DNA of 64,000 nt from Membranipora membranacea (lineage: Eukaryota > Bryozoa > Gymnolaemata > Cheilostomatida > Membraniporidae), in assembly GCA_914767715.1 (NCBI GenBank), contig OU612067.1, positions 12,155,001-12,219,000 of the forward strand. The letters run 5' to 3'. How positions within the stretch are numbered: position 1 is the stretch's first letter; every line of letters begins with the position of its first letter. The notes below the pieces were generated by a model, which was given only the letters and a program-made list of their open reading frames with translations, searched no databases and was not told the DNA's origin. The position numbers were made by a program, and so were the translations under genes. Below, piece by piece: positions 13,501 through 61,426 of this stretch.

Positions 13501-16500
13501 AGATCTCTGTTGTATAAAAAGTTTTTTTAGAATAGTATATTATTAAGTGTATGTATGAGATGTCTTAAAAAGCTGTCTCTACCCCATGTACCCTGATGTA
13601 TAACGGTGCGGTAGCGACCTGAGGGGCATTTAGTTAGAAAGTCATTGATAAAGTGCTCTTCATCGTGTATGTACCGTAGTCCAAGTGTCTTGATCTGGTT
13701 GGCCACCAGAGCATCTATATCGGGGTGCTCAATCCCTAACTTGGCGGCATCTTTAAATATTTTGCGTAAGGACTTCTTGTCGCTTGCATGGATGCTTGTA
13801 AAAAGTATGGGGAGACAGTAAGTGATGAGGGATACAATAAAACTCTTGAATAACATATGAGAAAGGGGCTTTGAGCTATAGTATACAAAATTTTTCACAA
13901 TATACATGCGTTGAGATGCAGTAGTCACTATGGATTGCACATGATCATGATAGCGGAGTTTATCGTCAACAGTAACACCAAGGTATTTTACTTTGTCACA
14001 AAAATCAACTTCCGTGCCGTTAAGGATAAGAGTAGGGGTAATGGGCCTAACAAGCTGAGTAGAAAAAATCATTTCTTGAGTCTTGGAGGCGTTTAACAAT
14101 AGGTTTAAATCACAACATTGCTTTGAAATTCTACTAATCTCATCAAGATAGGCACTAAGATCTGATTGATTTGATATGCATCCAATTATACAGGTGCCGT
14201 CTGCGTATTTAATGACAGTAATATTGCTAAAGTCTGAGGTAATCCTATTGGTATATATTGAAAACAAAAGTGGAGATAAACAGCAACCCTGGGGAGTGCC
14301 AGTGTTGGTTATGATGGGTTTTGAGATATTGCCATCTACTATTGTTCTTTGGGTGCGATTCGTTAGGAAGCTGTATATCCACTCAGTGACATTGGAGTTG
14401 AGATGTGATAGTTGCGAGATTAAGTCTGGAACATGTATTGTGTTGAATGCAGAAGAAAAGTCAAGGAACAGACACCTGGCATAATTTGAAGCTTTCTTGT
14501 CAATGAAATCTGTGATGGTAGTAGTGAGGCATAAAAGGGCATCTTGAGTTGAACGGTTTGCACGATAAGCAAACTGAAGGTGGTCCATAGCTGTATGAGT
14601 AATAATGTAATGTTTAACAAGTCTCTCCATCATTTTGCACAGGCAACTGGTGAGCGCTATTATAAATATAGTTAAAATATTATATACCAATAATTTGTTT
14701 TCCTAGTTCCAAGATGTAGCAATATAATCATTAATGATAAACGTTGGGCATTTGGCATCTGCTTCTAGCTCGCTTAGACTTTTGTCGATTCTAATGATAG
14801 ATTGAATGGAAGCAAAGATAATGGAAAGTTTGACGTAAAAATTCTTTTCAGAAAACCTGCAGTGTGAATGCATAGCCATCTAAACTAGCTGCTTATAGAA
14901 GGGAATGACAGCTATACTAGCATTAACATTTAGGAGAGTTGGGAATCATGTTATCTAAAGTTGGTATTGATACATTGTGGCACTTCCTTCCAGTTGCAAA
15001 TTTTGTATGGTCTGATTCACTCAGTGATCCCAAGCGTTATTTCAAGTTCTTCTAAAAAACAACTCATTAATGTATTGCAGCCAATACATGATTGTAATCA
15101 GTCTAGATGAAGGTGGGACAACAAAGGACAAAAAGAAGAGATCACTGCCTTCGCAGTGCAATATTGATGAGTTGTATAATTCAGAATATGCAGCCGCTAA
15201 CAACCTGACATGCTACATAACAGCTACAATTGATTATGGAGAGATCAGTGAAAGTGGCCTGGTAGTCACAGTTGGTGATGGAAAGACTACAAAAGGATAC
15301 TATAACCAGCCGCTTACAAAACATCAAACATACACCGTCCACGTCGTATTCGAAGGCACTATCGAGGTTAGTGATATGTTGCTGTATTTAAGGATATCCT
15401 AGCCTCATCCTCAACCTCAACCTCAACAGATTGACCCACATTCTAAGGCAGGGTTCACTTTAACTTTATGCACAAAGAATGCAGAAATTGGACCAAAAAT
15501 CACACCTGGACTCTCCCTTCTCACAAGCCAATATTGGAAGTTTGACTTCAAAACCTCATTACTCAGTTTCAAGGTCAGTTTTGAGCTTGGGTTGAAGCTG
15601 AGTGGATAGAGAAACAATTTTGGCTAATTACAATCATCTTAATTTCATTATGCTTTCAACAGAAGTTATTCTAACAGCAAAATAATCAATGGTTTCTCTC
15701 TCTTTTGTCAGGGTGAAATGAATAGCTTCAGGCAGTTCACAGATTCACAATCATTTCATGGTTAGTAAGCCCTTTGATAGCAAAGGTTATGAAAAGGAAC
15801 CATGGGCCATATAAGCTTTAATGATAATTTTGAGGATGATCAGTTTCACATTCAAGTCTGTAACAAATATTGGACAATCAGGACGTTAAACAAACAGCTG
15901 ATAGTCAAAATTCCTCTTATTATTAAAAAAATTGTTAGCTTAATTGTTGCGCAACAAATTCCTACACACTATAATTAACATATCACAAAATCATGGGAAG
16001 GATCATCCGTTTTTTTTTTGTATCTTACTGCTTTCTATTTTTGGCCCATTTCTTGTCAAATCTTTGAGTAAATGACATAACATAACACTGGTGTGGAGTA
16101 CCAAGAGATGTTGAAAACGCTCACATTCTTGACTTGTCCGAAGACTACAAGCTAGGTGCTCAGGTGTTTTACCAATGTGATCCTAACGCCGGGTCTGGAG
16201 AAGGTCTGTCAACATGCAGAGAAACACCAGAAGGACTCGGCTGGTCTGAGAGTACTCTTGTTTGCAAAAAAGCAAAATATTGGTGAGTATGATTTAGAGA
16301 AAGATAATATGTCTAGGAAATTCAAAACTAGAAATGTCCTTGGGCAAACCTAAAATTAATCTCCTCTCTGATCATTGATTCATTGTGATTGATGAGGTTC
16401 TTGTATGCCAATAATTTTGATTGAATTCCAATTGTATTTGAATTATATATTTTCTGATACTTTTACCTTTTCATAATGTTTTTCGTTTACCAAACACAGA

Positions 16501-20764: not shown

Positions 20765-23700
20765 TTATTTTGGTCTAGCTTTCTTAGTAGCAGGCTGTGT
20801 TTCCTCTGGTGGTTCTGGGCACACTAGGTCTCTAGTGCCTGGTGTACAAAACTCCCGTATCTCTTTAAACAGATACTTTCTGCGGGCTTCATCTAGACCT
20901 GATGGTACGATCTCTTTAGGATGACCTGTTGGACGTTGATGGAGAACAGTGTCTGTTCTCCCTGTCTTCTCTTTGCAAAAGAGCCTGGATATCACTTTAC
21001 CTGTAATAAAAGAATTGAATCCCAATGTGATAACATAAGTAGGCTCCACAATCAATACAGTCAACAGAAAACTTACAACTTTTGTTATGCCTATCATAGT
21101 CTATTGGCTTCTTCAGTATCCCACACAGTCCCACAATTGCCTACCTTGCATACTTTGAGAGAATGAGAACTGCTGTCTCTCTTTGATTCCTTGGATCCTC
21201 ACACCATTGCTGAAAAACCCACTCCAATCATACTGGGTGACAATAACCTTCCCATCCTGGTCACCCACTAGCTGCGCCTTGTTCTTCTCGCCATAGCAGG
21301 ACTCCCTGACAACCTTTTTCAATAAACAATAGGCACAATTATTTGCATTATTCTGTATCCCAGATCACCAATGACAATATTAACTATGTTATCCTGCAAA
21401 TACAACACTCAGGGCATATAAGGTAATTTTGTGAACCCGAGTTATCTCCACATCTCGAAAAGGCCAAAATTCATATAAATTATAAAGCGAAAAACTTCTT
21501 TTGTGGCTGGCATAAAAAGTTATCAAGCTACAGACCTCAAATTTTCAGGACGCACTCACAAACTGTGTATTTCTTTGCCCCCCATGAAAGTGGAATAATT
21601 ACATACATAAGCCGGCAGCAGGGCAGCAATTTATATCATTTTTTAACCGTTTTCCGTAAAGCTTTCGATATGTTGGTAGATAATTTCCTTGTTTACTAAA
21701 GAAAATAACCACTATGTTCCTCAGAAGATGAGCAATCCAATGATATAAAAATTTGTGGTGTCAGACCATTTGAAGCCATGCTGCTGCTCAAAAGAAAATG
21801 TGCTTCTACATAATTTTATTGATTTGTGATGATTTAGCTGTGCACAAATATGCTGATTGTGTGTGTATTCATCATCAGTAATGTAATGTAATTATTGTAA
21901 TACAGAATTCATGCTCCACTAAATTTAAGGCAGACACTCTTATTTTGATACAACATGTCTGTGTAGCTCAGTGGATAATTCTCTATTTCGTCAACGCAGA
22001 GCTCTGGGTTGGAATTGGTGCCAAATTATTTATACTCTCAATATGGCTATAAATCATAATGATTGTAAAGAGGAAGCCTTTTTTGTTGCAAACAAAATAA
22101 GTTGTCGAGCTACAGACCTCAGATTTTCAGATCATACTCAAAAAATGCCTGCCATGAAAATGGAGTAGTTGCATACATATGCCGGCAGCAGGGCAGCAAT
22201 TTTATCATTTTCAAACTGTTTTCACTAAAGCTCTCGAAATGTTGGAAGATGTTTTCCTTTTTTACTAAAAAAATTAACACTATGTTCCTCGGGAGATGAG
22301 GAATCCAATGATATAAAAATTTGTGCTGTCAGACCTATAGAGGTTATGCTGCTGCTCAAAAGATAATTTGGCTAAACATTGTTTTACTGATTTGTGATGC
22401 TTTAGAAAAAGCTTCTTTTGTAGCTGGCATAAGAAAATATTGAGCTACAGACCTCAGATTTTCAGGACACACTCACAAACTGTGTATTTCTTTGCCCCCC
22501 ATGAAAGTGGAATAATTTTATACATAAGCCGGCAGCAGGGCAGCAATTAATATAATTTTTTAACTGTTTACCATAAAGCTTTCGATATGTTGGTAGATAT
22601 TTTCCTTGTTTACTAAAGAAAATCACCACTGTGTTCCTCAGAAGATGAGCAATCCAATGATATAAAAATTTGTGGTGTCGGACCATTCGAAGCCATGCTG
22701 CTGCTCAAAAGAAAATGTGCCTACACATTATTTTACTGATTTGTGATGCTTTAGAGAAAGCTTCTTTTGTAGCTGGCATAAGCGATTATTGAGCTACAGA
22801 CCTCAGATTTTCAGGACACACTCACAAACTGTGAATTTCTTTGCCCCCATGAAAATGGAATAATTGCATACATAAGCCGGCAGCAGGGCAGCAATTTATA
22901 TCATTTTTTAACTGTTTTCCATAAAGCTTTCGATATGTTAATAGATATTTTCCTTGTTTACTAAAGAAAGTAACCACTGTGTTCCTCAGAAGATGAGCAA
23001 TCCAATGATATAAAAATTTGTGGTGTCAGACCATTCGAAGCCATGCTGCTGCTAAAAAGAAAATGTGCCTACACATTATTTTACTGATTTGTGATGCTTT
23101 AGAGAAAGCTTCTTTTGTAGCTGGCATAATAAGCAATTATTGAGCTAAAGACCTCAGATTTTCAGGACATACACTGAGTTTCATGCCTGTTACACCCACA
23201 AGTGTAATAATTTTCAAAACTTGTAATAACACCCACAAATGTAATAATCTCTTCCCTCAAATGTAATAACCAACCACAACTGTAATAACTTCTTCCCTCA
23301 AGTGTAATAAAATGCTTCACCCACAAGTGTAATAATCTGTTCCCTCAAATGTAATAAAAAAAAAATCACCCACAAGTGTAATAATCTCTTCCCTCAAATG
23401 TAATAATTTTATTCGCCGTTAATTGTATTGGAGAATAGAGAGGTAAGATCATCTGACAGCGCTATTACTGTGTTATATGCGCCTTTTGGTGTTTTTGTTG
23501 CACTCCAAATTGTCATAATAGGGCTTCAAATCATATGAAAATCCATCCGTTTGAGTTGTATAGGGGAGACAACGTAATTGTAAATGGCTAAAAATTTAAA
23601 TCCTATGAAAATCAATCCATCATTCATCCATCCATGTAATCATTTTTCACCATACCTATTCTGCAGCTAGGGCCATTTTTTTTCTTAGCTTTCAATAAAT

Positions 23701-26700
23701 CTCCTAAATTTGACCTGCAGTGGAGCACACCTAGTTAGTAGCACCGCAATGGGCCGGAGGAAAAGGTTATGAGTTATAGGCCTAACTCATTCTAGAAATA
23801 AACCTATTGATTTATATCATAAGCAGGTGTGCAAAATAACCAGATTTGTTTGGAATGTGTTGGAATAACATGGGCATAGGCTTAGTGCAAGGAAGACAAA
23901 GCTGATAAAAATTACACTACCCACTGTCAGTGGATGAAGCACAACTTGAGTTTTAGTGATGAGTTAATATGTCCACAATTTTTTATCAAAGGCTGCGCCG
24001 GCACCCAGTCATGGTCGTAGTAAGGCAAAAAGTCTCAACGGTACTTTTTTATATACTGCTCATTACCAATAACATTAATTTTGCAAATGCTTGCAATAGT
24101 TTTTAATCAAGCAATGGAACCTATAAATTTCCTAGCTATCTCTGCGCATGTCCTTGGTGTCAAGGGTAAGCGGTGCCAAACCTGATGATTTAGAAATAAA
24201 ATGAACATTATGTGCTGGCAGCCCACCAGACAGCACTACCGAAGACTATAAATAGACTAAAAATTCATCTAATAATTTATATATATATACATTATTATGT
24301 ACATTGTACCTTTATTGACATAAGAGTGCTGCTTATAAAAGTACAGGAATATAGACGAGTAGGTGTTGGACAGGCCAGTACAGAAATTTAAGACATAATT
24401 TTTGATTATGGAACGGTAATAAGAGTATGAAAATAAATGCTACATGATGTATGAGACCTATGACCTGACTTCTATTTTAAAAGATGAACAGGAAGTCAGT
24501 ACTACTAATAACTAATCTACAGTTTAATCCACACAAGCACACAGCATGATATAATGATTGAAGTAAGAAAGCTAAATGTATAGTATCGAATCAGGGAAAA
24601 AACATACATCGGATTTAATTAGATTAATTAATTCCAGTGTATGTTTATGACTCGATACCACCCGAATCTTAGTTTCTCCAAAGTAATGTAACCGTTTATC
24701 CAGCCAGTGCCGTAGCCCTGCAAAATTTCTCGCAATTCTATCGCCACTCCACTGCCTCTTCCACAATGTTGCATGATCGTTCTAACACCGATCACTGGGT
24801 TTAGTTCCAACTTCAGCGCTCTCTCATCCATTAGATTGAAATATACCTGTGGGCATGACTTACGGGATTCATACACACACACAGGAAATTGAGTTCCAAA
24901 GACGGTCTTTATATTGAGGAAATCATATATGCTGCCTCTGGCAGCATACCGGAATATGCGCTCAATATCAGCACTTTTCAAGTCGGAAAACTTGCAACGA
25001 GGCTTCCGGCGCATGTTGAGGGCTAAATCACGCCACAGCCGACACACACTTCGTATCCTTGTCAGACTTCTGAGATCGACGGAACATAACTGAAGTAGGA
25101 GGATAATCACTAGTAGAGGCAGTTCATTGATATGAAGTGGAGATCTATAAAATATTAGACAGAAAAGATGAATCACACTTTCATATCGTAATCAGATCGG
25201 TATAAATCTCCCTCCCAGTGAAATGCATTCTTATAACCCTAATCACAATGATGAAGTAGCCCTACATACACACAAAACATATCACTTCCTACCATATATC
25301 TTCTTATTTCCCTGATGGTAATTTTAAAAGTAGCAATATAACATCAAGTGGATTCGGTATAGATATTGTAAATGAATAGTGCCATTTACGTACCGTTCCT
25401 CAGCTGACTCCTTCGATGATGGAGTTTCCTTATCACTGTCAGTGGTCTTTGGCAGACCGGTTGCTTTTCGCTTCACTTCTACAGTGCTGGTACTGCAATG
25501 GTAGAAATCAAAATACATGTTATCAAGAACGTAATGCATCTTTGCCCTTGATCAAGAAACAGGTATCGACAATATATAGGCAATGACGGTCAGAATAAAT
25601 AGTCTTTACTTTGCTCTTTGTCTTTGATAAGTATGTCTTCAGGGGCCGCGCAGCTTACCATATTTTCAAGCTCCTGTACCGAGCTTGATGAATTTATTCA
25701 CTGTTATTCTGACTTGGCAAGGAAAACCTACCAAGATTTTGAACCTGAAAGCTGGAAGCGACAATAGGAGTTATCCTTCCATGTATTTAGGCCTTACCTG
25801 ATATGAAATGCTGAATTCTGTGCTTTAATGCGGCTGCTGTTAGACTCGATAATTGTATGATTGATGGGAATGTCTGTTGCTTCTGATGTACTGGCGCTAC
25901 AACCATTCAAAGAAAAAGAAAATTTAATCATCGGTTCTATCACTGCCCCGGTTTACACAGTCTTAATTTTGCAACATATTCATATAGGTGATTGAAGTTA
26001 TTTGTAAACCAGGAAGCATCTCTAGTTTGTCTCCTGTCCACTACTCATTGTATCACATGCCATTTATACTGTATAATTGAGTCATCGTGGCTTGCACAAA
26101 ATAAGTTTTACTATGTTTGGGTTTGAACATTAATGATCATGCGATTAGAATGAATCAATGGAAACAAAATTAAATACCTGGTTGTAGGGGAGGGTCTTGT
26201 GGAATCTGTCGTAATCTGCCTTGAACTCTCAACGATTTGATGTATGTCCCTCATGTCATTCCTAAGGACTACATAATGGGTACCTCTCGTCTCGTCTTGA
26301 TGGCCAAGTACAATCGTGGGCAGCGCTCTATTAAATGCTCTGCTTCCACTTGGTGTTAGTATTGTTGATCCATGTTGAATAGTAGAATCAATGAGTATCT
26401 GCACATTGAAGATTTCTGCAGCTACCTGGAGCGTTAGATGGTCGCCAAATTCCGCATTTTGGCTCATCCGTGTGATGTATTCGTTTTCATCCTCCCCAAT
26501 TGCTTCAGTCCACAACACGCTGTTTTGGATTCCGACATACCTGTTTCTCATGAGATATTCAATAACCTCACTTCTGAGTGTGTCCGCCGAACGGTATATT
26601 CCTAACTGTTGAATAGCGTACGCTATGGCCGCAAATTGACAGTTCCCATCCGGTGCTGGGTTGAAAATGGTCGGCGAGGCAAAGAGTTGAGAGCTGTTGC

Positions 26701-29700
26701 TTATCAGCACGTCCAATCTGGTTTGCTGCATTCGTTTCTTTTGGAGACTAAGTGTACTGCCAGTCAGGTCCCTGACTGAAATCCACTTTGTTTTGGCATT
26801 GTTATTTAAGTGATATTTTACTTTATACATGTACAGTTTTTCATTTCTCTGGATTACATTTCCCATCACAACCTTTGCCTTGGATATTCTTTTGTTGCCT
26901 GTCCTTAGCCGTATCAGGACTCTGTCATTTATTTCATATGTCGGTGTTTTTAATGACTTGATTGAGCGTCTTATAACTCTCTCATTTTCCTTTCCACTGG
27001 CTATTCTTGCCTCACTTCCAATTCTCTCAGTTGTGTTCTCGGATGTTGTGAGGAACTTCTCCCGTCCGTAATACACATTTAGTGGACTCCACCAGGCTAG
27101 TTCTCCTCGTGGCATATCGTTCAACTGGAGTTCATATGTAGGAAGCTCATTTACCCAGTTTGTACCATTGGGATTCGAGATGAGGTCGTACTGCATTTTG
27201 TACTTCAACGTACGGTGGGACCTCTCTACTTTCCCCTGCGACTCTGGGTGATATGGGCTGCTGAATATTTGTCGAATGTCTCTTGCCTTCAGCAGTCTGG
27301 ACACATCCTGCTTAAATTCTGTACCTTGGTCATTCTGGACTATCTTTGGGTTACCAAACGTGTCAAATATCGCCTTCAGCTCCTTTGCCACATTTTTTGA
27401 AGATTTTCTGGTCAACGGTCTCAGCCAGGTGTATCTAGAGAAGACATCGAGCACAGTCAGAATATATCGATATTCTTTACCATTATGATACGCCGGGTTG
27501 TTACGAAAGTCAACTAAGTCAATTTGTACTCGCCACATGACGGTCCTACAGCATATCAGTGTAATGGGAGCCTTGTTGCTGAACCTAGCAGACAGTCTTT
27601 GCCGGGTGGTTGAGTGTTGTAATGCAGATGCAATAGTTGCCTCAGAGAATCCTATGTATGTGCCTTTCATTTTTGACTGCAAACGTCGTGGTCCAAGACC
27701 CTTCTCAATATCAAAGTGTTTAGCAATCACCGGTGCCTTCTCGGATTGTCGTATCACTCGTAATCCATCTGCAAAAAATCAGTAAAATATGGCATTACAG
27801 TCTGAGACATATTGACAATGTAGTATGCAGATGCTTTGTGTTGTGTGATTAAACACCTAGGGACTCCAATCAAAGTCATGGAGATATGTTCTTGTTCAAA
27901 TTCACACCAAATTTCATACACCTGGAGTTGTCTTCTATGTATTTTGATATCAATTGACTCCAACAAAAAGGGCGGACAACTCCAATATTCCACACAAACT
28001 ACATTAGCTACTGCTATTGATATGAATGCAGTATGAATGAGTAAAGTCATAGTGTATGCACCAAGGTTATTTCAATTAAGTTTCATTGCCATCTTCTTGT
28101 TTCATGAATGAGGATGTGGAGACAAGAAAATTCATCACAATTGATCGTACTTCAGCGTAATAGCCAATTAACACTAGGGGTGGAATGAGACAGTTTTTGA
28201 AAGTCAAAACAAGATGAGAAGGGACAGCATGAAGTAAGGACAAAGTAGGAACAATTCTATCATTTTCTTCCCGCTTCGAAAATAAGAATGGGGAACTTAG
28301 TTTTGTGTCAACGAGACTGCGTCACCCCGCCTCGAAACCCATCTCGAAACGGAGGGGCCTCTCAATCCTAATGAAGACAATTAATAGTCATGCGTTACCA
28401 AAAATAAACATTACCCGGAGAGACAGGTAATTCGAAAATGCTGTGCTACAAATTGGGCTGTGTGTAATGAAATATTCAATGAGTACATTGTGAATTAGGC
28501 TCTGTTTACCAAGGAGAAGAATCTGTTCTGAGTCTTTGATTGCCACGCTCCAACGTCCCCTGTAACGCCAGTGATGAACGTATGCAGAACGCTCCAATTT
28601 ACTGCGGTCCTTGACTGCGGATTTAAAGTTTCCACTCTCTATTTTCATAATCACATCATATATGCCATCATTCATCACAGTAGGCTTTCTCTTTCCTCTA
28701 GCATACACACTGTCGCAGCATATGAATATCGAAAAAACGAGTAGTAACATCACTCTGAAAAAGAATAAACAAATTTCATTGATGACAAGTCAAGTTATAG
28801 GTTTCATCAATGACTTAGATCATTGGTTTCATGTATAATACTATTATTTGTAGCCGAACCGCTTAACATCCGAAACCTGGTAACTATTGTCAGTTCCTTG
28901 CCAGGATTGATGATGGAATGCCAATGACAGGCAGTAACTTTAAAATGCTTGTAGAAACAATGAGATGTAAATGAGATGTAAATGAGATAGTGATTGTTTT
29001 TGCTCACCTGAGGAGTGAAGTTGACATCTTGGTCGCTGCAATGAAGAGCAATAACTGATGAAAAATTCTACTTTCTTTTACACTGTGATATATTGGGGTA
29101 ATAATGTCCAGCTGTGTCTGTTTATTTTTGACTTCAAGCTTTTGTTCAAGTTATGAAACATTATGATTGATATTTTGTGCATAAAAAGAGAAGTAAAATT
29201 AACACGTATTTATTAATTGGTTGAATGTACAGTAGAATTAGAACGATCAAAGTCAACTGTGACTATCCTATGCTACAACGTTTTTCACACATAAGCTTGT
29301 ATATCTCTTTCATTACAACTATTTGAAACTCTCTCCGTAAAAATAGTTCACATGATTGTCCGAGTTTATGTAAATCCTAGCCACCCTAAATGACGGCTCC
29401 AAAAAATAATAAGGTGGGAAGCATCAGTAATATCATAATTTGACCATCGTGAATCTTGATGTGCTCTGGCTGGCTTAATCAATACCATGACTCTTCATAC
29501 TAGACATATAAAGTTTGGTAATACTGTAGAGTACAATGAGATTAATTGTTAATACCCATATAAAATTTGTTAGAGATGATCTCTCTAAGTGGAAGCTTCT
29601 TATCAGTTTCAAAGTTTATAATTAAGTTGTCTCCCCTACACAACTCAATGCCTTTGCATGGATTTTCATAGGATTTACATTTAAAACCCTATTATGACAA

Positions 29701-32700
29701 TTCGGAGTGTAAAAAAACACCTACAGGCGCACATTACACATTAATAGCGCTGTCAGATGATCTGACCTCTCTATTCTCCAATACAATTGCCGGCAAGTAA
29801 AATTATTACATTTGAGGAAAGGGATTATTACACTTGTAGGTGATTTATTTTTTATTACATTTGAGGGAAGAGATTATTACAATTGTGGGTGAAGCATTTT
29901 ATTACACTTGAGGGAAGAAGTTATTACACTTGTGGGTGGTTATTACATTTGAGGGAAGAAATTATTACATTTGTGGGTGTTATTACAAGTTTTGAAAATT
30001 ATTACACTTGTGGGTGTAACAATGCCCCATATATCATTACCCAACCAGCAACATTATTGTATAATTAACCCTGCCTGCCAAATAAACTACATTCATTATT
30101 GCTAATGTATTGTTATAGTATAATCCTTTACAGTTCTAGCCCAGTTCTAGTCAATATTATATAATTGGATTGACATTGTATTCAATGAGTTTGTATTTAG
30201 ATGACCAGGGAAGTTAGCTGCTACAATGAAAGCATTCCATTCGAATTGTCCTCCTCACAATTTTTGTAAGCACAACTCTTAGTATTGAGTATGATGAGCC
30301 CACAAAATACCTATGTTCAACTCTTCTGTGTTGTACTGTAGGCCTACCCTAAGCTATATCTTGTGCAATCTGAGAATGTAGGCAGCAACTGCATAAATAG
30401 AATACATCAGCTAAATTATGCTAGCAGAATGATCACAAAACTTTGCTACTAATAAAAAAGTACAACATCGCTCACCAGTTGAGCGAGGATCGACTTTGTA
30501 TTAATCGCCCTACATGCCTAAGTGGAGAAAAGTGATATGCGAATGAGGCCATATTCTCCACAGAACTAACGAAAATATGCTGACTGATGCTAGAAACAGT
30601 GGTGTATATTAGCACTCATATTAGCTCAGTGTGTAGAGCGTCTGCCTAATAATCACTGTTAATAAGATTGTTGTGGGTTCGAATCCCTTCGGTGTCAGCT
30701 TTTTTTCAAATGGGTGCTTTATAACTGGAGCATTTTTGAAATATTGAAATACCTCTCTGCTTGCACTATTTTGCTACCGATATGCAAAAATTTCACTCAC
30801 TGACTTTTTAGAGATGAGCATAATGATCGGGCACAGCCCGATCCACACGCCGTAGGCGTGGCGGGGAGGGTGTGGGAGGGGCGCTTAAGCGCCCCTCCCA
30901 CACCCTCCCCGCCACGGCGTGTGGATCGGGCGTGTGGATCGGGCTGTGCCCGATCATTATGCTCATCTCTAAAAAGTCAGTGAGTGAAATTTTTTAGAAT
31001 ATACGCCCCTGGCTAGAAAACATACTTGGTGTCAAAGCATGCAGTATTAATACTGATTATTGGCATAGTCTTAATCTACGCTCCTTGGGATTTTTGAGAT
31101 TGAATGGCTCTGAGCAAGGATTTAGCTCTGAATGCTATGGTATGTGGGTAAAATGAGGCAAAGGTAAATCTATTGTAAACCTGATATACATTCATTACCT
31201 GTCTACAAAGGAGCTCTTGATGTTAAACTTTATCATTCCCAGCCATCTCAGTTATATGGTGTACAGGAAGCAATTGTGGCATTTTTCTCTCTCACTCTTG
31301 GATGGTAGTTCCCTAGCAGGTGTTGGCACTAGTACAGATAGTATTTAAATGTTAGGCTAGTGACAAGACAACAACGTTTACAGTAATACATTTTAAGCTG
31401 TCAGCTTGTGTGCCACAAGCAGGGAGGTTAGCCTTTAACAGGCATAATGACTTAATTACCTCAATATTCCTTATCAAAACTTTTAATTATCGAATTAATT
31501 GTCGCTGGTAGTTAATCCTACACACACATTCCATTGCACTTGTAACAAGTCATCATGACACACTTGTGGAATTAAAGAGACAGGATGTCATCGTAAGCTG
31601 ACCTAACTTCCTGTCTTTTGCCGCTGATAATGAATGCGGTGAGTTTTTAATTTTGCGAATGTACATGTTTACAATGATGGTTGTTTTGGTGAAAGTACAA
31701 TCATGATCATTCTTTGACAGAAGAGTGAGGGGGCGGGAAGTTTTAACCTTTTATGAAAAATACTAGATGGTTGACCAAATTCTATTTGTATATTTTCATC
31801 AAATTATTTCACCAAACTCTGCTTCCAAGCTCATCATAGTACAGAGTAACTATGCCAAAAATGAGATTGCTTTGCAAAAAAATCTCTTGTGCCCTTATTA
31901 TCCGGTGTTTCATTGATTTTCCTCTGCTACTTGGTCAACTACAAGAGCTGAGCCCGATACAACATACAGTGGTTGTATCTGGCTCAGCTCTTGATAATCT
32001 GCTGCTAGCTCATTACGATAATCTGTGTGTTTACCCAAAGGGTTAACCATTTTTAAATCTACTGGTACCTTTTAAGTTCTGTGCAGGTTGCCTATGAATG
32101 CCAATGTCAACAAAATTAACATTCTGACTGGCTTATCTTGATTATGACTTCAGATACAACATACAGTGGTGCGCGTACCACTGCACAACACACAGGTCTT
32201 CAGCTAGAAACCATGAGTCAAACGCTGTTTCGAGGCCTTCTCTAGTACAACCTCCTCATGGCCGGCCCCAGCAGCATGAAGCCACCCCTGTGTGTTGCTG
32301 AGCATCTCAATCAATCTCATCGATCCCTCAGTGCATTTTGTCAGTTTCGGTGGTTTGACATAATTGGTGTGTTTACGCTGTTGCGCAACCAGGGAGGCTG
32401 CCAACTCTTCATTGTTTCAGTGCAACAATGTTCGCCCCATCACTCTCATGCTTATACTCTAAGCCAAACCAGTGCAGGGAGGTTTGCTTTCCATCAACTC
32501 ATCGGCGCAAAGTCGCTATCGTCAAGGCACCCGCCCCTCGTGCCACTTGTTCACTACTCAAATTCACCACATTGAGCATAGTACAACTCATACACAAGTC
32601 AGAGAGATGACTTGTTTGCGCTACAGCCAGTGGGCTGACTGTGATTTCCTGTCTCGCTCTGCCTGCCTTTTATGCGAGGGCCAAGCTTTTAATCCTATGT

Positions 32701-43612: not shown

Positions 43613-46600
43613 ATGAATGGGGAATCTGCATCATCTAAGGCATCATCTTCATTGTCTGCACTGCAATCCTTCTTCATAACAAGCAACCCTCCCCCTGTAC
43701 CTGATATCAACCCTGAGCTATTAGTGACTGTGAAGCCAAAGGATCATAGGCCAGTACGTGATCAGCTCTATGTTTCTCTATCTCAGTGGAGTAACAGCAG
43801 ATTTCAAAGCTCCTTCAGATTATCACGAGGTAAGTTATAAATACTAAATAGTAAGCAAATCAATCAACAGTATTCACATTGCACATACTCTCTCCCTCCC
43901 TCTCTCTCTCCCTCCCTCCCTCTCTCTCTCCCTCCCTCCCTCCCTCCCTCCCTCCCTCCCTCCCTCCCTCCCTCCCTCCCTCCCTCCCTCCCTCCCTCCC
44001 TCCCTCCCTCCCTCCCTCCCTCCCTCCCTCCCTCCCTCCCACATTCTGTCAGTCCATGTTGTTACCTGTTTAGGGGTTATAGCAGTACTCTGCCTCTTCA
44101 CCCTTGGTGCACATGTGTTAGTCGAGATGTTACTGAAGTGATTGACTGAAAACAACACTGTACATTTAACCAACCGTTATGTCAAATCGTTCCAATCTAT
44201 TCCTTCATTCTCAAGGTAGGTAGATTTTATGGTAACAATCTGACCACTTTTTTACTTTTCAGACTCCTTTGAACTTCTCCTAAGTCAATTGAAGGAGACT
44301 ACCAGTGGAAAAGAATGGCTACGGGACTATAGAGAGCCATTTATGCCACCAAATACCTTGGCGAGTGGTCACAGACTCGTGATTGCTCTGCACTATTACT
44401 CCACAACTGATGCTATAGCGTCAATCGCAACACAGTGAGTAGGCCTACTAGAGCTTGCTTTATTGTATAAGTGTAATTTGAATTATCTTGAGACGTATGC
44501 AATTAGGGTGCTGAGATGTGTTTTGATTTGTTGAGGCCCTACACTAATAGCATGCTTTGTCGATTGCGCTATCTCAGCTTTCCCAACCTATTGGTAGTTT
44601 TTGACAGCTAAGTTAGCTGTATAAGCCAGGATATAATGGAAAATTTCTCGAAGTCCTGTCTGTATTTCCTCAAATTGACAGAGGTGTTGCGTTTATGCAT
44701 ATGACCTGTAAATAAGTTTAGATTACTGTTAGGTATTACCTATACGGTGTAGGCCTTCTCATCTGGGAAACAGTATGAATCATGTAGGCTACATGTATCT
44801 ATTTTGTTAGCGAATATCAATTTACCCTGCAGTGACCAAGTCCGAATCCTTCTGTCTGTTATTATGAGAGCTTTGGTTTGATGTCCGCATAACATCATTA
44901 TACACATAGAGAAGACTTAATGTCAGTAATTTATGAATTCATGTTTCCTCATCCAGCTTCAATGTCACTGAGTCCACCGTTCACGAGAGCATAACCAGGA
45001 TCACTCACGCTCTCCTGGAGCTTGAACCAAAATACATCAGCTGGCCAACTCGTGAAGAAATGGAGGTAGAGGAAGCCACATTCTTCACCCGATATGGTAG
45101 GTGCTTTTGTCCACAGACACTCAAGCTAGATTTGGCCTGGATCTATATCATTTGTTGTCGAGCAATGCATCCCTAACAGCTAAGAAAACCAGTGCTTGTG
45201 GTAATGGTCTTAGGCCCTGAGCACACTAGTCCGTTTAACGGATCCGTTTTTGGCCTGTATCTATATCCTGAAGGATCACTTCAGTCAACAGAATCATATA
45301 AGCAAAAACGGATCCGTAAAACGGACTAGTGTGCTCAGGGCCTTAGGCAATAGATGTAGTTGAAGTCTGTAGTAGACCTGAAATATTGTTGTGTAATCAT
45401 TTAATGTGATGATTCACGTTGTATTGTTATTGCCTTTCCCAACAGGTTTCCCAGGTGTCATTGGCCTAGTTGATGGAACTGAGGTGAAGATTGCTCAGCC
45501 TTCTCAACACTCAGAGGTGAGTGCTGTTTCTAAAGCTGTTACCATATACTATCATGTCAGTCACGAGTTTACTCTCTGGCCTTAGTCAATGCACCATAAT
45601 AATGTTAAGCCCTGTATGTTCAAGGATAATAGACCCACCTATCATGCTTGGCATGTTCATGGCATCATGGGTGATGTGTGCATGTTGCTGACCATTGGCT
45701 ATGTCTATTTGCCTCTGTTGCTGCCAAAGCCCTCTATAAGGCTTTGGTTGCTGCGTTTATCCCTGCAGTGAAATGCCCAAACTCATAACAGACATTGATT
45801 ACTCATCTATACTATGAAGCCGACTAGCACCACTGCAGTGGTAGCAATTGCTAATTTAGTTAATATCCTATTAAAATTGTTACAGACATACTTTAGTCGG
45901 AAAAAGAATTACAGTTTCAACTGTATGCTGGTAGTAAACAGCGCAGAGGAAGTTATTTATTATAGTGTAGGCTCTCCAGGATCCTATCATGATGCCAGAG
46001 TCCTGAGACGCACAGACCTGGTGGAGAAACTCAGTACACTGCCTGCCCAGTATCATTTACTTGGTAAGTTAGTAGTAATTTGTGATTCTTGTGTCTTCTT
46101 TTTCCATTGTATGTCTGTGGTTGCTTCAGCTCACCCAGAATGAGGTACTTAGCTTGGATTTCAACCTTCATGTCCTCCACAACAAGATGTTTCAATAAGA
46201 AAAATCTATGATAAATACTTAAATTTGACAGCAAAATTTGATAATTTATGAGCTTAATATTACCCTACTACTTGGCTAAACCAATCTAAACAGGGCTGGT
46301 GGTATGGCTAGGCTTGTAATCATCTGCAAACATGTTATTGATTTTTTATATGATGTTTACAAGTTCAATCTGACCCCATCTTGCCCAGAGTAGACTTGTT
46401 AACTGTGCAGCATTGCTGAATGGAAAAGTACATGTAACTTTAATACCAGCTGGCTGAACTAGAATAAAATACCCAATATTCTGCATCCAATGTTTATCTG
46501 ACTATATCTACATATGTTATGCCCACTTCCACGTTGTGGGTAAAGTGAAAATGCATGATTAAACATAAATTTATATTCAGGCGACAGTGCGTACAAGCTA

Positions 46601-46954
46601 GAGAGTGGAATGATGAAGCCATACAGAGATACACGTAATAATCCTCGGCGGGTGAAGAAATTCAACAAGGCCAACAGTGCCACTAGAGTTCTAGTAGAAC
46701 ACACAAACGGCCGCCTAAAGAACATTTGGCAAAGACTCAAACAAGTTGATGTACGCTCAAGGGAGAGGGCGAGAGCAGTGATAAGGTGCTGCCTTATCCT
46801 ACACAACTATATCCTACGACATGATTGTGTAACAGATAGGGAGCAGTGTGGCCGAGTGATGACTGAGTTGAGGTTTGACTCTGCGATATCGAAACGAGAG
46901 GCCATCTGCAAGACATACTTTAAGCAGGGGGTTGATGACACTTTTAATGATTAA
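43613..46954 (+). CDS. PIF/Harbinger transposase, six exons, 383 aa
   Basis: Exons 43613-43829, 44263-44434, 44957-45096, 45446-45516, 45886-46063 and 46581-46954 join in phases 1, 2, 1, 0 and 1, totalling 1,152 nt with a TAA stop. The N-terminal part is Ser/Pro-rich, then a helical region (SFELLLSQLKETT, TESTVHESITRI) resembles the helix-turn-helix of the family. The DDE_Tnp_4 catalytic residues are in VIGLVDGTEVKI (first D), GSYHDARVL (second D) and LVEHTNGRLKNIW (E), with GDSAY before the last. This enzyme cuts and inserts Harbinger DNA at TTA/TAA targets. The length is close to the family norm and the frame is intact. Element ends were not located. Confidence 0.88.
43889..44040. repeat. 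(CTCC)n microsatellite, about 150 bp
   Basis: An almost pure CCCT tetranucleotide tract lies in the first intron of the Harbinger gene, with a less regular TCTC lead-in. Long reading frames across it are artefacts of the repeat. Confidence 0.95.
45213..45341. mobile_element. 129-bp MITE with TTA duplication inside a Harbinger intron
   Basis: The ends GGCCCTGAGCACACTAGTCC and complement form arms of about 38 bp including ACGGATCCGTTTTTG. TTA flanks both sides (45210-45212 and 45342-45344), the target preference of Harbinger transposases. It sits between exons 3 and 4 of the Harbinger gene, on neither splice site. Confidence 0.85.
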
Positions 46955-59463: not shown

Positions 59464-59476
59464 ATGGTAAGTGATC

Positions 59477-61426
59477 ATGTTGAAAAATAAAAGAAAGAGG
59501 GAGTGGCATGCTTATAATGCGGCTGCCAAGAAGCTATTTGAATCTGCTGAATTGGACGAATCTGTCATAGCTTTATTTGCAGATGAGGCTGATCATGAAC
59601 GATTAGTATCAAATGTTGTTGAGCATGAGCAAGAGACATTTCCAGCTGATGTTGATTCACCAACGGAGGATTTTTATTTCTCTGATGGAAATTCTGAGAG
59701 TAGTGAGGACTTAGATGTCCAGCTTGATGATGGGCAGGAGCCAGCTTGGGAAGATTTATTTCGTGGTTGCAAGAATGTTTTTAGTGAACAGCAGCAGTTG
59801 GTTATTCGTGATAAAGTGGCTGACTGGGCAGCCCGCTACCGTGTTACTCGTGATCAAGGAAATAGTATTCTGAAAATATTGAATACCATATTCCCGTTGG
59901 TACCAAGGGATGTGCGGACGTTGTTACAGACTACTGTGTCGGTCAATGTTGTTCAAAAGGTTGGCGGTGATTACTCTTACTTCGGGATTTTGAAAAGTTT
60001 GATTAACAACAACCTCCTTGAACCAAATGTAACCAAAATCAACATCCAGCTGAATGTTGATGGTGTACCACTGTACAACTCTAGTCCTGAGGGCTTTTGG
60101 CCCATACTGATGTCTGCTAATGGGTCCAATCCTGTGGCTGTTGCTCTATATTATGGATCTGGAAAACCCTCTGATGTAACTGGCTTCATGGCTGATTTTG
60201 TTGAGGAATATTCACAGTTATCACAGGGCTTTGATCATGAAGATACAATCTATTCCGTGACACTACATAGTTTCATCTGCGACGCTCCAGCCCGCGCTTT
60301 CTTGAAATCGATAATCAGTCACAACGGCATAGATGCATGTGAGCGGTGCTGCACCAAAGGGATATGGAAGGCTGGTAGAGTTTGTTTCAATGATTTCACT
60401 GCACCACCAAGGACAGATCAAGAATTCTCTCAGCAGCGCTATGAAGATAATCATCAGACTGGCATAAGTCCGCTTTCTACAATATTTGGTTGTGTCACTG
60501 GGTTTCCGCTCGATTACATGCATTTGGTCTGCCTCGGAGTTATGAAACGCATAGTAAAATTTTGGAAAACCGAGAAAACCTCTACAGGCAGACTTTCTCA
60601 AGTGCAGCTGGCTCAAATATCCACTTCTCTTGAACAGCTCAATGGTCAAATGCCCTCTGAGTTTGCTCGACAGCCTCGTTCGCTCAAAAAATCTGATAGG
60701 TGGAAAGCTACTGAGTGGCGACAGTTTGTACTGTATACAGGGATGGTAGTCTTGAAAAATGTTGTCAGTCTGAGTTGTTACCATCATTTCATGTGTCTCT
60801 GCATAGCTATGTCAATTCTGTTGGATGAGGATGATGATTTTAGAAATCACTACCTTGAATTTGCTCATCATTTACTGGTGACTTTTGTAAAGGAAGCGAG
60901 ACGTCTCTATGGTGAAACGTTCCCTAGCTATAATGTTCATTCCTTGATTCATCTGGTTGATGATTGTAGGCATTTTGGTACGAGTCTAAATTCTCTATCT
61001 GCTTTCCCATATGAAAACTTTTTAGGTCAGATGAAGAAGCTAGTAAGAAATAAGAATAGCCCTATAACCCAGGTTGCTAGAAGGCTGTCAGGGCGACAGG
61101 ATCTTGTTGGGACAAAGGAAATTAAGACAAAATTAGTGGCCAACTTACGTAACGGTGTTGTTAAGTTGCTCTCGGGTGAGATAGGTTTCATATTGGAAGA
61201 GAGTGGTGATTTGTTGAATGTCAGAGTTGTACCTAGGGAAAGGCTTCAGAGTTCCTTTACAGTGCCGCTCGATTCCTTAGATTTAGGAATCGGTCTACTT
61301 CGTAGATCAATTTTAGCTGAGATGCCGGTTCGTGAAATAAGAAGAGGAGATGTGCAAAAGAAAATGATTTGTCTGTCACTTACAGGAGAGACAAGCTTGA
61401 CAATTTTGCCAGTTCATCATTGTTAA
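59477..61426 (+). CDS. CACTA-like transposase, single exon, 649 aa
   Basis: The open frame begins upstream with GTG at 59471; the first ATG in it is 59477, which I prefer as start. After a basic start (KNKRKREW) and an acidic region come blocks typical of a large invertebrate transposase family: LVPRDVRTLL, NVDGVPLYNSSPEGFWPIL, CDAPARAFLKS with CERC just after, RTDQEFSQQRYEDNHQTG, and FPLDYMHLVCLGVMKRIV, ending with YPFENF-like FPYENFLGQMK. I link the family to CACTA/En-Spm from memory. The frame is uninterrupted, so the protein may be functional. It lies wholly inside the predicted first intron of the next gene. Confidence 0.75.
   Translation: MLKNKRKREWHAYNAAAKKLFESAELDESVIALFADEADHERLVSNVVEHEQETFPADVDSPTEDFYFSDGNSESSEDLDVQLDDGQEPAWEDLFRGCKNVFSEQQQLVIRDKVADWAARYRVTRDQGNSILKILNTIFPLVPRDVRTLLQTTVSVNVVQKVGGDYSYFGILKSLINNNLLEPNVTKINIQLNVDGVPLYNSSPEGFWPILMSANGSNPVAVALYYGSGKPSDVTGFMADFVEEYSQLSQGFDHEDTIYSVTLHSFICDAPARAFLKSIISHNGIDACERCCTKGIWKAGRVCFNDFTAPPRTDQEFSQQRYEDNHQTGISPLSTIFGCVTGFPLDYMHLVCLGVMKRIVKFWKTEKTSTGRLSQVQLAQISTSLEQLNGQMPSEFARQPRSLKKSDRWKATEWRQFVLYTGMVVLKNVVSLSCYHHFMCLCIAMSILLDEDDDFRNHYLEFAHHLLVTFVKEARRLYGETFPSYNVHSLIHLVDDCRHFGTSLNSLSAFPYENFLGQMKKLVRNKNSPITQVARRLSGRQDLVGTKEIKTKLVANLRNGVVKLLSGEIGFILEESGDLLNVRVVPRERLQSSFTVPLDSLDLGIGLLRRSILAEMPVREIRRGDVQKKMICLSLTGETSLTILPVHHC

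Follow-up and report, generated by a model that had tools for sequence, protein, structure and literature searches.

A Membranipora membranacea transposon predicted to join a gypsy-type integrase, an OTU protease and an F-box-like module in one protein

Ginger1 DNA transposons use a gypsy-type DDE integrase as their transposase, are bounded by terminal inverted repeats (TIRs) with TGTNR ends, contain introns and, in some families, carry a C-terminal OTU domain (Bao, Kapitonov and Jurka, 2010; PMC2836005). Several of the transposases described there bear ubiquitin or SUMO proteases, for which that paper only guesses at a reason, and the term "F-box" is absent from its main text. We analyzed a stretch of 64,000 nt from contig OU612067.1 of Membranipora membranacea (hereafter the window, to which all coordinates refer). 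The window holds a transposon resembling Ginger1 only loosely, whose gene is predicted to encode an F-box-like module and a previously overlooked C-terminal domain behind the integrase and the OTU protease.

Read from the DNA itself, the element has TIRs, is flanked by 5-bp duplications and keeps its frame open; its DDE residues and its OTU Cys and His are conserved, and many relatives share its F-box-like segment and C-terminal domain. We consider the chances evenly balanced that it belongs, as a complete element, to an old transposon family of animals, whose one protein is laid out as integrase, OTU, flexible linker, F-box-like module and C-terminal domain, and would recruit the host SKP1/CUL1 ligase while its OTU part edits ubiquitin.

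Domains of the predicted transposase and its relatives

Six minus-strand exons join in phase into 2,571 nt coding for 856 residues with a single terminal stop, and all five introns have GT-AG borders. This joined structure had been proposed in a first-pass annotation of the window and was borne out, as were the positions of D172, D235, E270, C465 and H586 in the translation. The six-exon splicing of the transposase gene is a prediction; full-length relatives, P0015 and P0018 among them, align across 96–99% of the joined protein. A chance join of the exons was ruled out by the identical order of parts in full-length relatives and in the frame of a sister family described below. The Pfam families rve (E 3e-14, residues 169–263) and OTU (E 5e-10) matched the joined protein above their cut-offs, and rve_3 (residues 252–281) below its own. 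Counting sequences with a letter at the site, the integrase D, D and E are conserved in 115/117, 137/140 and 143/143, respectively; the catalytic Cys of OTU is kept in 125/126 sequences and the His in 103/103.

Relatives were pooled from a protein search (61), a tail-profile search (4) and the best 120 of 162 matches to a full-length profile, giving 157 proteins; in the protein and full-length-profile searches, scoring was restricted to the 8000 candidates with the most words in common. Setting aside P0049–P0061 (13 weak, mostly Gypsy-like proteins) and four short tails left 140 relatives, among which P0138, also bearing a reverse transcriptase domain, was kept. Behind the F-box-like module we identified a conserved C-terminal domain of about 50 residues, missed in the first-pass annotation, with the pattern SVRxL...GxxSGL...LR.II...WxxAWL...GW..I..I.W. 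Exon 6 matched a profile of this domain, built from 19 relatives with the window left out, at 50.2 bits, a link to the transposase family that does not depend on the splice model. The domain was found in 64 of the 140 relatives (E ≤1e-3; 45 of these outside the training set). An F-box-like segment lies directly ahead of it in 63 of the 64 (E ≤0.1; 44 outside the training set), and two further relatives have the segment without the domain. None of the 13 Gypsy-like or other proteins set aside carries either part.

Carriers of both parts include the corals Oculina patagonica (P0023) and Montipora capricornis (P0036), the sea star Patiria miniata (P0034) and the fish Epinephelus moara (P0030, with an incomplete C-terminal domain). 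Because the layout is shared among these animals, the architecture looks ancient rather than accidental. The joined protein and the relatives support the domain order given in the first-pass annotation, with an F-box-like segment after OTU. The annotation had taken the F-box to be an addition to this element; since many relatives carry the module, it is, judging by these sequences, old and family-wide instead.

The tail-profile search gave four matches, two of them (P0063 and P0065) nearly identical duplicates of exon 6, and a scan of viral contigs yielded five pattern matches and no relatives. When compared with the PDB, the C-terminal part of the tail profile weakly matched MDA5 (E 0.0086, profile positions 72–101), which we took to be probably a chance match.

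The Pfam F-box-like model scored 16.1 bits on the whole protein (E 0.0097) and 19.1 bits on exon 6 alone (E 0.0011) against a cut-off of 24.3; the F-box model scored 16.1 and 15.4 bits, respectively, against 20.5. Among the domains named in the first-pass annotation, the integrase and OTU thus pass their Pfam cut-offs, and the F-box, at 19.1 versus 24.3 bits at best, does not. Unit 1 of the window reached 13.4 bits against an F-box-like profile made from relatives, and exon 6 matched FBXL17 at 17.0 bits (E 0.05). In 20 tails compared with Pfam (E ≤10), F-box was matched in 11, F-box-like in 7 and any other family in 1. The 45 carriers of the C-terminal domain outside the training set, minus near-duplicates, supplied 37 test tails, which retain P0022 (close to the training member P0012) and P0043 (without an F-box match). 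These matched F-box-like in 16 cases, F-box in 15 and F-box-like_2 in 2 (E ≤1), the other 22 families shown occurring once each, and their reversed versions matched F-box models in 0/37.

Profile–profile comparison with FBXL17, FBXL2 and SKP2 put the LP start in register with a score of 19.8 (P 7e-4); the highest of 60 column shuffles reached 15.4. The predicted structure of P0015 has helices at 735–750, 754–765 and 769–781 followed by a beta-alpha-alpha-beta-beta arrangement, with a predicted local distance difference test (pLDDT) score of 79–95 for blocks 731–847. Integrases filled the Foldseek and VIA-align lists for this model (one OTU in 50 VIA rows), so that the missing F-box there carries no meaning.

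A number of results weigh against an F-box in a family-wide protein of this layout. No scanned sequence reached the Pfam F-box cut-off, the best relative scoring 24.1 versus 24.3 bits, and unit 1 of the window is weak against a larger family F-box-like profile (4.7 bits). The profile–profile probability was just 27% in local and 6% in global mode. Searched against the PDB, the profile of the 37 tails retrieved no F-box protein; its sole match was a ribosomal protein (E 0.55). The model of exon 6 from the window is poor (pLDDT 49.6), and Foldseek on it gave weak, unrelated matches alone. The C-terminal domain was not seen in 76 of the 140 relatives, a set with many short sequences but also with Lytechinus gene models that finish in repeats behind OTU (P0004, P0009, P0010). 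As for OTU, the Asp of its DGNC motif is Asp in just 85/125 sequences and Asn in 30.

The main alternative to SKP1 recruitment sees the module as a docking unit without SKP1 contact. Homologous to F-boxes or only resembling them, it would form a dimerisation or targeting unit together with the C-terminal domain, leaving OTU alone to act on ubiquitin. In line with this, F-box scores stay under the cut-off wherever shown, 18 of the 19 training relatives have Phe where unit 1 of the window has Trp, the module is almost always coupled to the C-terminal domain, and the profile–profile probability is low. Yet the LPxE start and the three helices fit an F-box, and true F-boxes can share low pairwise scores, because the FBXL17 stretch used as a query reaches FBXW7 at no more than 16.3 bits (5ibk; 13.2–13.3 for longer FBXW7 chains), as distant as the window exon is from FBXL17, although FBXL2 and SKP2 scored 27–44 bits. 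We regard this alternative as rather doubtful, if a serious one.

Copies, splice sites and a sister family

The 339-Mb genome (18 contigs) was searched with the DNA of exon 6; the resulting counts are lower bounds. Exon 6 was found whole, nearly whole or rearranged at at least 13 places, the window included, together with one 51-bp fragment. The last exon, whose absence from other family copies would have spoken against the first-pass annotation, is thus mostly kept, in favour of that annotation; one further copy, C7:27021779, absent from the exon 6 list, matches residues 14–405 alone (the N-terminal and integrase parts, in a 6-kb stretch). Ten of the 12 other copies preserve the AG and GT borders of exons 4–6. 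The two that do not are L014, where exons 4 and 5 are missing, and L019, whose exon 4 is interrupted by an insertion and whose splice sites are altered. One of the ten, L015, lacks the end of exon 3 along with its donor. About 83 additional bases, including an inverted piece, lie in exon 6 of L020.

Duplications of 5 bp with variable sequence flank nine of the ten copies with both ends readable, counting the window; L010 has none, and L015, L019 and L020 were left out of this count. Further duplication sequences include GACCA, CAGGC and AGGAC.

Also unfavourable to the preferred reading are the inner stops in 11 of the 12 other copies (projected frame, insertions ignored); they are absent from the window copy and from L020 with its additional bases. 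Pairwise ratios of nonsynonymous to synonymous change (pN/pS) among 11 copies were 0.35 in exon 2, 0.57–0.60 in exon 3, 1.68 in exons 4 and 5 together and 0.70 in exon 6. A redistribution test on 13 copies, likewise unfavourable, found excess synonymous change in no exon, integrase included, and with the test null throughout we do not claim selection within the family from the copies. Neutral-looking substitutions are expected if copies died after insertion, and they neither support nor exclude a function of exon 6.

Elsewhere in this genome, a sister family (L001, L002 and C7:739966) has a single frame of 736–739 codons that covers integrase, OTU, two LP... units and the C-terminal domain and starts near residue 82 of the window protein. 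It also occurs at L021–L025. Since it is near-identical at three places, its sequences suggest that it was recently mobile or duplicated; these three places share flanking sequence that lies upstream of the point at which L025 diverges. Self-comparison detected no long terminal inverted repeats in the sister family.

In an alignment with the sister family, its second LP... unit falls on residues 738–790 of the window protein, in degenerate form. This possible second unit scored 2.4 bits in the window (2.0 bits with the larger profile), and the two units of the sister family scored 7.6 and 11.8 bits (9.2 and 6.6 bits with the larger profile). Apart from the three sister-family frames, two stretches above 5 bits were found in 0/157 proteins searched. 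Two tandem F-box-like units may be present in the M. membranacea families, a weakly supported lead.

A second alternative assumes two products. The exon 3 frame alone is open and stops 67 bases beyond its donor, a further point against the joined protein, so that an integrase–OTU product without the F-box is possible. Most transcripts would then end in or just past exon 3, and exons 4–6 would feature in a minor isoform or form a separate gene fused by the model; the three Lytechinus gene models that finish in repeats behind OTU agree with this. Against it, P0015, P0016 and P0018 (contigs of 3.5–4.4 kb, splicing status not shown) hold the parts in one protein, as does the 739-codon frame of the sister family, and the splice sites of exons 4–6 are kept in most other copies, L015 without its exon 3 donor among them. 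We consider two products improbable.

About ten OTU–F-box relatives lie in the same direction at C3:21757121–22444196, with seven of the nine spacings at 58–74 kb, an arrangement as if they may be borne by a large tandem array. Two of these (L026 and L027) have broken frames and, by eye, an LPVEIL... segment; neither matched the F-box-like or C-terminal profiles at E 0.05.

Table 1. Features of the transposon and its predicted protein, given as positions in the window
Feature	Position	Strand	Basis
Complete DNA transposon, 6,834 bp, TGTTA...TAACA ends	23188..30021	-	End and copy alignments
Target site duplication ATGCC, left copy	23183..23187	.	Sequence inspection
Target site duplication ATGCC, right copy	30022..30026	.	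Sequence inspection
Terminal inverted repeat, 397 bp	23188..23584	.	89.7% identity to other arm
Terminal inverted repeat, 407 bp	29615..30021	.	Paired with 397-bp arm
Exon 1 with ATG	29008..29027	-	Gene model
Exon 2, hydrophobic start and N-terminal region	28510..28754	-	Gene model; relatives' alignments
Exon 3, integrase and OTU	26178..27768	-	Gene model
Exon 4, linker	25798..25896	-	Gene model
Exon 5, linker	25394..25492	-	Gene model
Exon 6, F-box-like unit(s) and C-terminal domain	24628..25144	-	Gene model, Pfam, relatives' profiles
DDE integrase core, residues 169–281 (D172, D235, E270)	27191..27529	-	Pfam rve, rve_3
OTU cysteine protease domain, about residues 461–590 (C465, H586)	26264..26653	-	Pfam OTU
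F-box-like unit 1, residues 691–731	25006..25128	-	Pfam F-box-like, relatives' profiles, FBXL17 match
Possible second, degenerate F-box-like unit, residues 738–790	24829..24987	-	Weak profile scores; sister-family alignment
Conserved C-terminal domain, residues 804–855	24634..24789	-	Relatives' profile, 50.2 bits

The TIRs themselves consist, at 23193–23427 and 29803–30016, of short repeated units like TTATTACAxTTGxGGG. Beyond the element boundary, a GC-rich, near-perfect long palindrome was spotted by eye at 30820–30990. Other open frames of the window lie at 13527–14702, 45799–46954 and 59471–61426; by eye, their products resemble mobile-element proteins (putative reverse transcriptase, Harbinger-like and unknown transposase).

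Predicted mechanism

In the reading that we prefer, SKP1 recruitment by a gypsy-integrase-like, cut-and-paste transposon, the integrase part would cut and join DNA, and the F-box-like part would bind host SKP1 and thereby dock the CUL1 ubiquitin ligase. The C-terminal domain would hold the target, in the role that WD40 or LRR regions play in ordinary F-box proteins. OTU would strip ubiquitin off the transposase itself, allowing it to survive the ligase that it recruits. The likeliest target would be a host factor at the insertion site with a role in chromatin, repair or silencing. The steering of ubiquitin envisaged in the first-pass annotation is likewise a prediction.

More broadly, the transposase of an entire animal-wide transposon family might itself carry both an F-box substrate receptor and a deubiquitinase. 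The intasome of this family would then be a mobile ubiquitin-editing machine, recruiting SCF to a target chosen by the new C-terminal domain and shielding itself, a picture that we put forward tentatively as falling somewhat short of probable. A predicted deubiquitinase and an F-box-like receptor in one protein would offer a direct test of why transposases carry such enzymes.

Comparison with known systems

The window protein shares with Ginger1 the gypsy-type DDE integrase core with conserved D, D and E, a C-terminal protease of the OTU or Ulp1 kind, here OTU, and a TIR whose TGTTA end fits TGTNR. Other features of Ginger1 were not recovered. The H2C2 zinc finger model PF17921 gave no match to the window protein at E ≤10. 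The HHCC and YPYY patterns were each found in 0/144 sequences within the first 200 residues, many of these sequences having no N-terminus, and the GPY/F motif occurs nowhere in the window protein and in 0/144 within residues 331–460. Ginger1 duplications are 4-bp CCGG/CCGT and its TIRs 40–270 bp long (PMC2836005), compared with variable 5-bp duplications in the window family and TIRs of about 400 bp in the window element. The label "Ginger-type" of the first-pass annotation therefore holds for the integrase core, the ends and OTU, and fails for the zinc finger, GPY/F, YPYY and the CCGG/CCGT target. By its sequence, the element is Ginger-like only loosely, tested Ginger1 hallmarks being absent, and its group of gypsy-integrase-like transposons is one where the search for a zinc finger found none. 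An ordinary Ginger1 with OTU and a chance resemblance to F-boxes, which the known OTU of Ginger1, the gypsy-like integrase and the TGTNR ends might suggest, is very improbable, because the test tails match F-box models in 15–16/37 cases and never when reversed, and Ginger1 identity was rejected on four tested features, namely HHCC, GPY/F and YPYY in the stretches searched and the duplications.

Ginger2 and the TDD elements likewise have an integrase-like transposase without GPY/F or YPYY, and duplications of TDD-4 and TDD-5 are 5 bp long (PMC2836005). Ginger2 itself has H2C2 and favours AT-rich targets, and no C-terminal protease is entered for it in the table of that paper; the window family differs in having no H2C2 match and duplications such as GACCA, CAGGC and AGGAC. 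OTU- and VTD-bearing Helitrons (PMC9741609) are also transposons with predicted or tested deubiquitinases, but they use a rolling-circle Rep/helicase, and "F-box" occurs nowhere in the main text of that paper. F-box genes with captured transposon domains, reported in the closest screen that we found (PMC12062965), similarly combine an F-box and a transposon-derived domain in one protein; these are, however, immobile host genes with Mariner HTH or KDZ CxC7 pieces, and "OTU" occurs nowhere in the main text. We found no paper describing an integrase–OTU–F-box-like architecture, the search having left aside Repbase reports, where a prior description is possible. Relative to Ginger1, the window family adds the F-box-like module and a small conserved C-terminal domain that matched no Pfam family above cut-off in the 20 tails scanned.

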